A stretch of 64,000 nucleotides of DNA from Methylohalomonas lacus (GCF_024808875.1 NZ_JANUCT010000010.1:1-64000); one strand, 5' to 3'. Counted from the stretch's first letter, positions 48,338-52,368 are shown. Notes: a model not told the origin generated them from the letters alone. A program made the numbers and translations.

Positions 48338-50137
48338 TTAGTCGTGCCGAGAGGTGGCTGAGGATTTGAGGTAGGCGTCAGCACCAACCCGGCCCATGTA
48401 CTGCTGCAGCAGTTGCGGGGCGGTCTGTTTCATGTCGACAACAATCAGGCCGTCGACAGCGTTGTTGAAGTCGCGATCGACGTTAAATTCCAGGAACTTG
48501 CCGCCCATCTTCAGGTATTGCCTGATCAAAACGGGCACGCCCTTGTGGTCGGCCTCGATCTGGGCGATGAGGTCGGAGACCAGATCGATGTCGCTAACGC
48601 AGTGCAGATCCTCGTCGGCCAGGAAAGCGGGCCGCTGATTCGGCAGCGGCGTACGCGGTTTCACCCGCAGGCCGGGCTGGCCATTGTTCAACCGCAGGCT
48701 GTCGACCAGCAGGCACAGCGAGTGCCGGTCGTAGTCGCCGCTGATCGTCACCGGGCCGAACAGGTAACGGTAGCGTGGATTGTTCGCCAGGTAGCTGCAG
48801 ATGCCGCGCCAGAGCATGAGCAACGAGGTATGGTGACGCTGGTACTCGGGCCGGACGAACGAACGGCCAAGTTCGATGGCCGGATCCATGTAATCGAGCA
48901 GCCGGTTGCCATAACGAAACAGCGAATGCGTGTACAGCCCCTGCCGACCATGACGGCTGACGATATCGTCAACCCGGGCCAGCCGATAGGCACCGACGAT
49001 TTCCCGCCTGCTCCTGTGCCAGATGAACAGGTGCTGGTAATAGGTATCGTAGTGATCCAGGTCGATCGCCCGGCCGGTGCCCTCGCCCACCGCGCGGAAG
49101 GTCAGCTCGCGCAGACGGCCAATCTCCTGCAATAGCCATGGCATCTGCGCGGCCCGGGCGATGAACACCTGCATGTCGCCGTGCGTCAGCAGACACTGAT
49201 CCGGCGCGAGATGCGCGATCTCGGCCTGCAGCAGATCGGCCGGCGTCGCCGCAATCACCGCTGCACCATCGACATGGTTGCGCGCCGCCGGTTGCCGATC
49301 AACGGCTGATTGCCGAGCCAGCAAGCCATTGTGCATCTTCAGGTAGCGCGTCACTTTTTCATCGCTATCCAGACGCTGCAGACGGCTGTACTTGACTGGC
49401 CGGCCGACTCGCAGATCAACCTGCCTGCCCGTCTTGTTCAGCAATTCTCGCGGCAGCATGAACGTGCGCACGCGCGGGTGCAGCAGGCCGAGCGTCTGGA
49501 ACAGCCAGCTGTTGCGACCGTGGATATGCACGGGCACGACCGGCGCGGCGGTCATGCGGACCAGCCGACCGATCATCGGATTCCAGGCAACTTCGCGGAC
49601 ACCGCGCTGCGGCACCGAGTAACGCGCCACGTCTCCGGCGGGAAATACCAGCAGGCAACCGCCTTCGCGTATCCAGCGCAATGCCTCGCGCAGCGGTCTG
49701 CTGTTGCTGCGACGCGCCTGCTCGCCGGCGTACGGATCGACCGGAATGAACAGTTCGCGCAATTCGTCGATGCGACACAGGTGGAAATTAACCATGATGC
49801 GCAAATCGCTGCGTATGCCGGTAAGCAGATGCGCCGCGATGATGCCGTCGAGACCGCCAAACGGGTGGTTGGCGACGACGATCGCCGGTCCGGTGCGCGG
49901 GACATGATCGAGCTCTGCCGGGTTAACCCGGTAGTCGATCTGCAGCAGTCGCAACGCCTGCTCGCAAAAGGCGCGCGGCTGTCGCGGCCAGTCGTTGCCA
50001 CGATAGATTGCATCGAGCTCGGCCAGCCCGCTGGCCGCTTCGACACCGCGGTAGAGTGCATTTCTCAGCACGGCGCACCAACCATCCTGTACGGGCTGGC
50101 TGGAAAGGCGGAACGGACTGGTTTGCAGTACCGACAT
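48338..50137 (-). CDS. olsF: Bifunctional acyltransferase, OlsF-type (ornithine lipid synthesis)
   Basis: A 599-residue two-domain enzyme. The N-terminal half (about residues 75-290) is a PlsC-like O-acyltransferase with NHPFGGLD (His91) and GGCLLVFPAGDVAR. The C-terminal half is an OlsB/hemolysin-type N-acyltransferase with the GNAT-like region LRELTFRAVGEGTGRAIDLD and IELGRSFVRPEYQ. This PlsC-plus-OlsB order is that of OlsF, which makes ornithine lipid from ornithine without phosphorus. The start at 50137 is chosen because the open frame to 50401 overlaps the glycosyltransferase gene. It is the last gene of the lipid operon. Lysine or glutamine as head group is also possible. Confidence 0.8.
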   Translation of the reverse strand: MSVLQTSPFRLSSQPVQDGWCAVLRNALYRGVEAASGLAELDAIYRGNDWPRQPRAFCEQALRLLQIDYRVNPAELDHVPRTGPAIVVANHPFGGLDGIIAAHLLTGIRSDLRIMVNFHLCRIDELRELFIPVDPYAGEQARRSNSRPLREALRWIREGGCLLVFPAGDVARYSVPQRGVREVAWNPMIGRLVRMTAAPVVPVHIHGRNSWLFQTLGLLHPRVRTFMLPRELLNKTGRQVDLRVGRPVKYSRLQRLDSDEKVTRYLKMHNGLLARQSAVDRQPAARNHVDGAAVIAATPADLLQAEIAHLAPDQCLLTHGDMQVFIARAAQMPWLLQEIGRLRELTFRAVGEGTGRAIDLDHYDTYYQHLFIWHRSRREIVGAYRLARVDDIVSRHGRQGLYTHSLFRYGNRLLDYMDPAIELGRSFVRPEYQRHHTSLLMLWRGICSYLANNPRYRYLFGPVTISGDYDRHSLCLLVDSLRLNNGQPGLRVKPRTPLPNQRPAFLADEDLHCVSDIDLVSDLIAQIEADHKGVPVLIRQYLKMGGKFLEFNVDRDFNNAVDGLIVVDMKQTAPQLLQQYMGRVGADAYLKSSATSRHD

Positions 50138-50148
50138 TAGCTGTCTGT

Positions 50149-51195
50149 TCAGAGCGTGATCTGCGTGACCGGATTGTCCTGATCCTGCGGCGGCGCATTG
50201 AACGGATCGAGGTTGTCGGCAAAGCCCTTGGCGCAGTAACGCCATGAGCGCGAATGTGCGAAGTCGATGCAGTCCTGCGGGTCGAGCTGTAGCGCCTGCA
50301 GAGCGGCTGCGCGCAGGTCCTCGTTCATTACGCCAGTCACACCGTTGCTGATGACGTCGATGGGCCCGGTGACCGGATAGGCGGCAACCGGCAGGCCGCA
50401 AGCCATCGCCTCGAGCATGACCAGGCCGTAGGTGTCGGTGCGACTGGGAAAGACAAACACGTCCGCCGCCGCCAGATAGCGCGCGAGTTCTTCGCCGAAT
50501 CGGTAGCCGCTAAACACCACGTCCGGGTACTGTTCACCCAGCTTCTGTCGATCCGGGCCATCGCCGACGACGACCTTCGTGCCCGGCAGTTCCAGATCCA
50601 GAAACGCGTTGATGTTCTTTTCCACTGCCACACGACCCATGTACATGAAGATCGGTCGCGGTTGCGGCAGGAATGATTTGTCGGCGGAAGGTCTGAAGAT
50701 GTTCGTATCGACACCGCGCGACCAGGTCACGACGTTGCTGAAACCGCGTTCAAGCAGACGCTGGCGCTGCGACTCGGTCGGCACCAGCGTGCGCGTGGCC
50801 GGGCCGTGAAACCGGCGCATGTAGGCGTAGGACCAGGCCAGCGGAATCGGCGCGCGCATGCGGATATATTCGGGAAACTGCGTATGAAACGACGACGTGA
50901 ACGGCAGTTCGTTTTTCAGGCAATAACGGCGCGCGGCGTGGCCCAGCGGCCCCTCGGTCGCGACATGAATGGCGTCGGGCTGGAAGGCTTCGAGCGTGCG
51001 CCGCAAACGCGGCCCCGGGTTGATCGCCAGGCGTATCGACGGATAGGTCGGGCATGGCACGGTGTGGAAAGTCGCCGGCGTCAGCAGACAGATGTCATGA
51101 CCAAGTTCGCGCAGTTCCCGCGTGGTGTTTTCATACGTGCGCACGACGCCATTGACCTGGGGCAGCCAGGCATCGGTGGCAATGGCAATTCTCAT
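50149..51195 (-). CDS. agt: Glycosyltransferase family 4, Agt-type
   Basis: A 348-residue GT4-type glycosyltransferase with the start IATDAWLPQVNGVVRTYENT, the sugar-nucleotide region YMGRVAVEKNINAFLDL, and the E-x7-E-like VFVFPSRTDTYGLVMLEAMACGLP. In phosphate-starved marine and soil bacteria Agt adds glucose or glucuronate to diacylglycerol. It lies between plcP (20 bases upstream) and the olsF-type gene (11 bases downstream), the expected place. The acceptor is inferred from the neighbours. Confidence 0.85.
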   Translation of the reverse strand: MRIAIATDAWLPQVNGVVRTYENTTRELRELGHDICLLTPATFHTVPCPTYPSIRLAINPGPRLRRTLEAFQPDAIHVATEGPLGHAARRYCLKNELPFTSSFHTQFPEYIRMRAPIPLAWSYAYMRRFHGPATRTLVPTESQRQRLLERGFSNVVTWSRGVDTNIFRPSADKSFLPQPRPIFMYMGRVAVEKNINAFLDLELPGTKVVVGDGPDRQKLGEQYPDVVFSGYRFGEELARYLAAADVFVFPSRTDTYGLVMLEAMACGLPVAAYPVTGPIDVISNGVTGVMNEDLRAAALQALQLDPQDCIDFAHSRSWRYCAKGFADNLDPFNAPPQDQDNPVTQITL

Positions 51196-51215
51196 GGCGT
51201 TGACGGAACGATCAA

Positions 51216-52007
51216 TCAGGCGGCAACACTCAGGCGTTTCAGTGACTCGACCTCATCGGTCCAGTGAATCAGCTCCAGCGAGCCGTCGTGAGCCTCGGTC
51301 AGCGCGGTACAGCTTTCCACCCAGTCACCGCAGTTGAGATACAGCATATCGTCGATGTGCGTGATCTCGGCACGGTGAATATGGCCGCAGACCAGGCCAT
51401 CGACCTTCTGACGCTTGGCCTCGTAGGCGAGCGCTTCCTCGAAGTTACTGATGTAGCTGACCGCCTGCTTGACCCTGTGCTTGAGCACCGCTGCCAGCGA
51501 CCAGTAGGAAAAGCCCAGCTTCCGGCGTACGTAGTTCACCCAGGTATTGGCCTTGAGCAGCAGCTCATACAGGGCGCTACCGATCAGCGCGGTAGTCCGC
51601 GACGAGGTCACGACCGCGTCGAACTTGTCGCCATGCAGTATCAGCAGACGCTTGCCGTCCTTGGTGGTATGAATGTGCTCGTTGCGGATTTCCAGGTTGC
51701 CGAGCACAGTACCGTCCATATCGCGCAGCACTTCGTCGTGGTTGCCAGGCACGAAGATGACGCGCGTGCCGTGCTTGGCCTTGCCGAGGATCGTGCGCAC
51801 AACGTCGTTGTGTGCCTGGGGCCAGTACAGGCGTTTTTTCATCTGCCAGATATCGATGATATCGCCGACCAGATACAGCGTGTCGCAACGGGTCGAACGC
51901 AGGAAGTCGAGCAGATACTGCGCGCTGCAGCCGGAAAATCCGAGATGCACGTCGGATATGAAGATGGTTCTATAATATGTCGGCTTCATTCTGTGTACGC
52001 TTGTCAT
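51216..52007 (-). CDS. plcP: Phospholipase C-type metallophosphoesterase PlcP
   Basis: A 263-residue metallophosphoesterase. Metal-site motifs are IFISDVHLG, YLVGDIIDIW, VPGNHDE, LHGDKFD and CGHIHRAEI. The middle NTWVNYVRRKLGFSYWSL, followed by NCGDWVESC, fits PlcP (first known as UDP-2,3-diacylglucosamine diphosphatase-like). PlcP turns phospholipids into diacylglycerol under phosphate limitation. The start at 52007 has GAAGG 9 bases upstream. A Pho-box-like site lies about 70 bases before the start, and the agt gene follows. LpxH function is the alternative, but the context favours PlcP. Confidence 0.86.
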   Translation of the reverse strand: MTSVHRMKPTYYRTIFISDVHLGFSGCSAQYLLDFLRSTRCDTLYLVGDIIDIWQMKKRLYWPQAHNDVVRTILGKAKHGTRVIFVPGNHDEVLRDMDGTVLGNLEIRNEHIHTTKDGKRLLILHGDKFDAVVTSSRTTALIGSALYELLLKANTWVNYVRRKLGFSYWSLAAVLKHRVKQAVSYISNFEEALAYEAKRQKVDGLVCGHIHRAEITHIDDMLYLNCGDWVESCTALTEAHDGSLELIHWTDEVESLKRLSVAA

Positions 52008-52076
52008 GCCGTGGCCTTCGGGTCTAAACCTGGCGGCGAGTATTACGAACACAGATGACGAATTCATGCCCGGCGT

Positions 52077-52094
52077 GTGACAGGAATATGAAGA
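52077..52094 (-). promoter_or_regulatory. Pho-box-like site upstream of plcP
   Basis: On the minus strand TCTTCATATTCCTGTCAC matches the 18-base PhoB consensus CTGTCATAWAWCTGTCAY at 13 positions by my count, with the second half CTGTCAC perfect and the repeat spaced 11 bases. It ends 69 bases before the plcP start codon. The -10 region is not obvious. Confidence 0.55.
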
Positions 52095-52236: not shown

Positions 52237-52368
52237 ATGAATGAACGGGAAGAACAATGGCTGGAATTGCGCGTCAACCTGTTGAAACAGCAACAGGCGT
52301 TATCCGGCCGCAACTGTTGCTGGCAACGCCGGGCACTTGCCGACTACCTGCGCTGGCGTTTTGACTGA
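52237..52368 (+). CDS. Small protein of 43 residues
   Basis: A short frame from ATG at 52237 to TGA at 52368, below the usual length cut-off. It begins MNEREEQWLELRVNLLKQQQ, a charged amphipathic helix, then SGRNCCWQRRALADYLRWRF with a Cys-Cys pair. A strong ribosome site (GGGAGG) lies about 7 bases before the ATG. No family is recognised. It lies between the plcP operon (divergent) and the nitroreductase gene (convergent). Confidence 0.55.
   Translation: MNEREEQWLELRVNLLKQQQALSGRNCCWQRRALADYLRWRFD

Follow-up and report, generated by a model that had tools for sequence, protein, structure and literature searches.

A predicted PhoB-controlled plcP-agt-olsF operon for phosphorus-free membrane lipids in Methylohalomonas lacus

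Phosphorus-free lipids that replace phospholipids have mostly been studied as two separate pathways, one leading to glycolipids, the other to aminolipids. Can a bacterium command both by a single switch? The question is raised by three genes, plcP, agt and olsF, in the DNA of Methylohalomonas lacus analysed here (NZ_JANUCT010000010.1:1-64000). This whole stretch of 64,000 nucleotides, from a draft assembly of 38 contigs, is called the window below. We consider it highly probable that the three genes are a real and well-supported phosphate-starvation lipid operon, activated by PhoB and saving membrane phosphorus. Every part of it is known already; what is new is the arrangement of known enzymes in one unit.

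Table 1. Features of the plcP-agt-olsF locus; positions are counted from the first base of the window.
Feature	Position	Strand	Remarks
plcP, PlcP-type phospholipase C (metallophosphoesterase), 263 aa	51216-52007	-	PF00149; start taken at MTSVH...
agt, GT4 glycosyltransferase, 348 aa, predicted diacylglycerol glycosyltransferase	50149-51195	-	PF13439/PF13692; homologues adjoin plcP
olsF, fusion of PF19576 O-acyltransferase (N-terminal) and PF13444 N-acyltransferase (C-terminal), 599 aa	48338-50137	-	
Terminator-like hairpin, 28 bases past the olsF stop codon	48292-48310	-	8 G-C pairs, loop of 3, T-rich tail
Pho box array, four half-sites, 11-base pitch	52055-52094	-	motif scans and promoter shuffles
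Putative -10 element AATACT	52039-52044	-	4/6 consensus bases; inferred from the sequence, not a scan match

The genes follow each other closely on the minus strand, with 20 bases between plcP and agt and 11 between agt and olsF; the first-pass annotation of this DNA had genes, strand, gaps and coordinates right. Same-strand spacing is no proof of co-transcription, which we infer. A hairpin scan, whose hits are at shuffle level, found no terminator-like site on the minus strand inside the cluster. The hairpin behind olsF is likewise weak evidence by itself, the count of such sites in the region being at the shuffle mean. For olsF the start at 50137 is preferred; a longer ORF of 687 aa, listed to 50401, overruns agt. 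Downstream of the cluster, at a distance of 211 bases, lies the gene of a GGDEF protein and upstream, at 364 bases, that of a nitroreductase. A small ORF of 43 aa (MNEREEQWLELRV..., 52237-52368, plus strand) is divergent from plcP and has a good ribosome-binding site, GGGAGG; among the loci examined it has no homologue.

A Pho-box-like site upstream of plcP had been noticed before, and the 18-mer concerned (52094-52077) indeed agrees with 13 of the 18 bases of CTGTCATAWAWCTGTCAY. Alone, it is weak. When up to three core mismatches are allowed, the genome contains 402 sites, and the reversed control pattern still finds 327; shuffles of the plcP promoter yield p = 0.03. Being near chance genome-wide, the single 18-mer was given up as sufficient evidence of a PhoB site and replaced by a larger structure that had been missed, a tandem array of four half-sites of 7 bases each, TCTTCAT, CTGTCAC, CGGGCAT and TCGTCAT, with an exact pitch of 11 bases. 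They match at 4, 7, 5 and 5 of 7 positions, so that mismatches are present, and add up to a score of 21/28. A four-half-site score of at least 21/28 is reached at 1 of 127,922 window positions, which is the array itself, by a measure chosen after the array had been seen. AATACT begins exactly 10 bases past the last half-site. This is the layout of a Pho promoter: tandem CTGTCAT half-sites, an 11-base pitch and about 10 bases before the -10 element. Because the array covers an alternative upstream ATG at 52067, the later plcP start is the more likely one.

Comparison with other genomes points in the same direction. When 34 plcP promoters from other genomes, the window not being among them, served to train a three-half-site model, the array came 7th among 242,414 positions of its own genome; by a two-half-site model the same site ranks 54th only. 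Promoter shuffles give p = 0.002 for the array score. Sites of at least 13/18 are found upstream of plcP in 53% of 38 genes of relatives (4% in shuffles) and upstream of unlinked gammaproteobacterial olsF in 28% of 50 loci (3% in shuffles). The Pho control that had been predicted for the cluster is thus backed by the tandem array and by the comparative promoters.

The regulatory system itself is present: PhoB (over the cut-off) and PstS of the Pst system are encoded on another contig. Above the array, the three-half-site model places the pstS promoter, a porin promoter (two overlapping matches), the promoter of a cyclopropane fatty acid synthase and two unexplained sites. Models from the plcP promoters of other genomes also pick the own-genome promoters of pstS, phoB, the phosphate-selective porin and the cyclopropane fatty acid synthase. 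The gene of the phosphate-selective porin O/P (L074:8349-9674, minus strand) is divergent from phoB and has a Pho-box array of its own (9854, minus strand). The strongest such array in the own-genome DNA examined lies beyond the window, 229 bases upstream of the cyclopropane fatty acid synthase (PF02353; L076:1515-2919, which is C10:84515-85919 of the genome). In Pseudomonas putida BIRD-1, cfa2 is raised at low phosphate and undetected in a phoBR mutant (PMC5082522). The synthase may possibly be a further lipid gene of the same Pho regulon.

Which enzymes would be switched on? Agt is a glycosyltransferase of family GT4 with a genetic link to plcP; in the profile search no specific family scored over its cut-off. 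Of 369 gammaproteobacterial genomes surveyed, 102 have a plcP homologue and 106 an agt homologue; the two stand side by side on one strand in 41 genomes besides the source genome (counted from the survey tables). Its predicted class, diacylglycerol glycosyltransferase, is that of named members among its relatives. Characterised relatives use UDP-glucose or UDP-glucuronate as donor (PMC8528852), and the sequence does not tell one from the other.

The third protein combines PF19576 and PF13444 in a single chain and in the order described for OlsF (PMC11631085). On the NCBIfam OlsF equivalog NF052615 it scores 426 bits, below the cut-off of 620 and thus formally outside the equivalog. GlsA and GlsB of glycine lipid synthesis were considered and rejected, their models scoring far below the OlsF model. 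The earlier reading as a PlsC/OlsB fusion of the OlsF type is borne out by the domain order and by this difference in score. No match to OlsF was found by sequence in the PDB. A tree of 66 OlsF homologues splits, with full support, into two deep clades. Two members tested of one clade reach 746-817 bits on the OlsF model; those of the other clade, from the window, Vibrionaceae, Desulfovibrio and Pedobacter, reach 406-437 bits. The cut-off of 620 excludes every tested member of this second clade, the Vibrionaceae homologues included (homologues compared: window 48338-50137, L110, L122, L102, L168, L010, L008 and L096). By sequence, the window protein is classed as OlsF-like, of a divergent clade.

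Other explanations have to be weighed. The Pho box could be there by chance in a cluster that is not phosphate-controlled, or olsF could have its own expression; such a view would be in keeping with the single 18-mer, which is no rarity in the source genome. It is, however, quite improbable in the light of a four-half-site array that is unique within the window, of promoter conservation in relatives, of an olsF-agt gap too short for a promoter outside agt and of genes with no minus-strand terminator between them. The identity of the first gene, too, could be disputed. Its product is a calcineurin-type phosphoesterase, and automatic annotation names such proteins LpxH, the UDP-2,3-diacylglucosamine hydrolase of lipid A synthesis. 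Homologues carry this label in public records, and weak matches of the window protein to LpxH models exist. Yet its score on the LpxH model is 45 bits against a cut-off of 190, and a separate, true LpxH is encoded on another contig of the same genome (C5:144342-145031), with 290 bits against that cut-off. The alignment gives 48% identity to a PlcP homologue of Sinorhizobium meliloti and 22% to the own-genome LpxH, and the motif GNHDE is seen where LpxH has GNRD. The conservation of plcP beside agt in the 41 genomes and the enrichment of Pho boxes at plcP promoters also disagree with a function in lipid A synthesis. The own LpxH and the alignment led us to discard the LpxH identity, which has hardly any chance of being correct, and sequence comparison supports PlcP. 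The first-pass annotation, which had proposed a PlcP-like phospholipase, is confirmed in this point, and its fear of a mix-up with LpxH is dispelled. The Sinorhizobium meliloti record used has one PlcP-like protein, of 281 aa, which we take to be the characterised SMc00171. A record of this species, CP090106.1, is labelled plasmid pSymB; with 3.72 Mb it has the size of the chromosome, and the label is probably wrong.

The head group and the sugar are beyond what a sequence can tell. OlsF might make an aminolipid with lysine, glycine, glutamine or several head groups, and the operon would then serve a glycolipid plus a non-ornithine aminolipid. The score under the equivalog cut-off is compatible with this idea, as are the Pedobacter homologues that share the broad clade of the window OlsF and the occurrence of lysine lipids together with a suspected OlsF homologue in the related genus Pseudopedobacter (PMC4484230, PMC11631085). 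Vibrionaceae homologues, however, fall into the same broad clade and score range, and the OlsF proteins of Vibrio cholerae, which are 30-33% identical to that of Serratia, make ornithine lipid in E. coli, as does the latter (PMC12186959). Because of this low identity, the lower-scoring clade probably holds tested ornithine lipid synthases, the tree containing Vibrionaceae homologues rather than the V. cholerae OlsF sequences themselves. Since it probably does, ornithine is the likely head group also for the window OlsF. With the low scores of the GlsA and GlsB models added, we deem a different head group unlikely.

The operon, read as one for glycolipid and ornithine lipid, could work as follows. 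At low phosphate, phosphorylated PhoB would bind to the tandem half-sites and induce a single transcript. PlcP would cleave phospholipids into diacylglycerol and the phospho-head group. Agt would transfer a sugar (glucose and/or glucuronic acid) to the diacylglycerol to yield a glycolipid. OlsF would use a 3-hydroxy fatty acid to N-acylate an amino acid (ornithine being the most likely one) and would O-acylate the product; the resulting phosphorus-free aminolipid would not require a glycerol backbone. Glycolipid and aminolipid would then take the place of phospholipids in the membrane.

How does this compare with known systems? In the type 2 context of Sebastian et al. 2016, in Pseudomonas aeruginosa (PA3219-PA3218) and in Methylosinus trichosporium, Agt follows PlcP directly, and in P. 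aeruginosa and marine isolates a Pho box lies upstream, all as here; unlike the window, olsF as a third gene is not described in these papers as far as searched (PMC4796936, PMC8528852, PMC9239053). The OlsF proteins of V. cholerae (VC0489, which is PhoB-controlled) and Serratia proteamaculans are bifunctional acyltransferase fusions like that of the window, but a link to plcP or agt is not described for them in PMC12186959. The Serratia-like OlsF appears to belong to the other deep clade, judging from an identity of about 33%, the Serratia sequence being outside the tree. Desulfovibrio alaskensis G20 has the same gene pair: under phosphate limitation agt (Dde_3613) accounts for glycolipids and olsF (Dde_3661) for ornithine lipid, and both are needed at low phosphate (PMC5193443). 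By their locus numbers, however, the two genes are not adjacent, as they are in the window. Full-text literature searches, with subscription papers and supplements outside their scope, yielded no paper in which plcP, agt and olsF are described as a single cluster.

Also the exact order plcP-agt-olsF was not found outside the source genome, neither in the 369 gammaproteobacterial genomes nor in three further order surveys and 80 named loci; in the order-level search, the taxonomic order of the source organism was represented by the source genome alone. The neighbourhood of olsF and plcP, in turn, recurs. Of 28 further gammaproteobacterial genomes having both genes, 9 show it, where chance would predict about 0.06 genomes (the 28 are those of the 369 that carry plcP together with an olsF fusion, be it complete or cut by a contig end; source genome excluded). 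The two genes are divergent in G079, G084, G207, G125, five relatives of the latter and L095. Other arrangements are olsF-plcP-agt with a second, divergent agt (G212), olsF-plcP-x-agt (G060), agt-plcP divergent from olsF (G086), olsF-plcP (G273) and plcP-olsF (G347). The clusters of G212, G060, G086 and the order of G125 unite the same gene families as the window, yet in a different gene order or with divergent transcription. All three genes point in one direction in two of the nine linked genomes. The claim of a novel combined arrangement has to be toned down, since plcP-agt with a Pho box is well known and olsF-plcP recurs; the genome search proposed with it retrieved no second case of the exact order, but the two same-direction clusters just mentioned.

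Both deep OlsF clades contain olsF genes linked to plcP, and the well-supported branches of the tree require that the linkage was gained or lost at least five times; in the order to which G212 belongs, G212 alone shows the linkage in the flanks of 1.5 kb examined. We lean towards the view that in Gammaproteobacteria olsF has repeatedly become a partner of plcP and that the glycolipid and the aminolipid branch have been brought together by selection on several independent occasions, in various orders and with two distant OlsF types, so that both lipids are obtained from one switch. This recurrent linkage is the more interesting general point than the single operon. A unit for both lipids may serve as a marker for bacteria doing full replacement and as a clean test for the balanced production of two lipids. 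It also gives cause to correct the label LpxH that automatic annotation puts on PlcP and to broaden the OlsF model, by which the second clade is apparently missed.

Two related loci may be added. In a Steroidobacteraceae MAG (L161:1521-4371) agt shares 23 bases with olsF and is preceded by a Pho-box-like array of high score; directly upstream of agt, within the 1.5 kb examined, there is no plcP. In G212 (L078:5072-9839), where the second agt homologue is divergent from olsF-plcP-agt, two different Agt-like enzymes flank the cluster.
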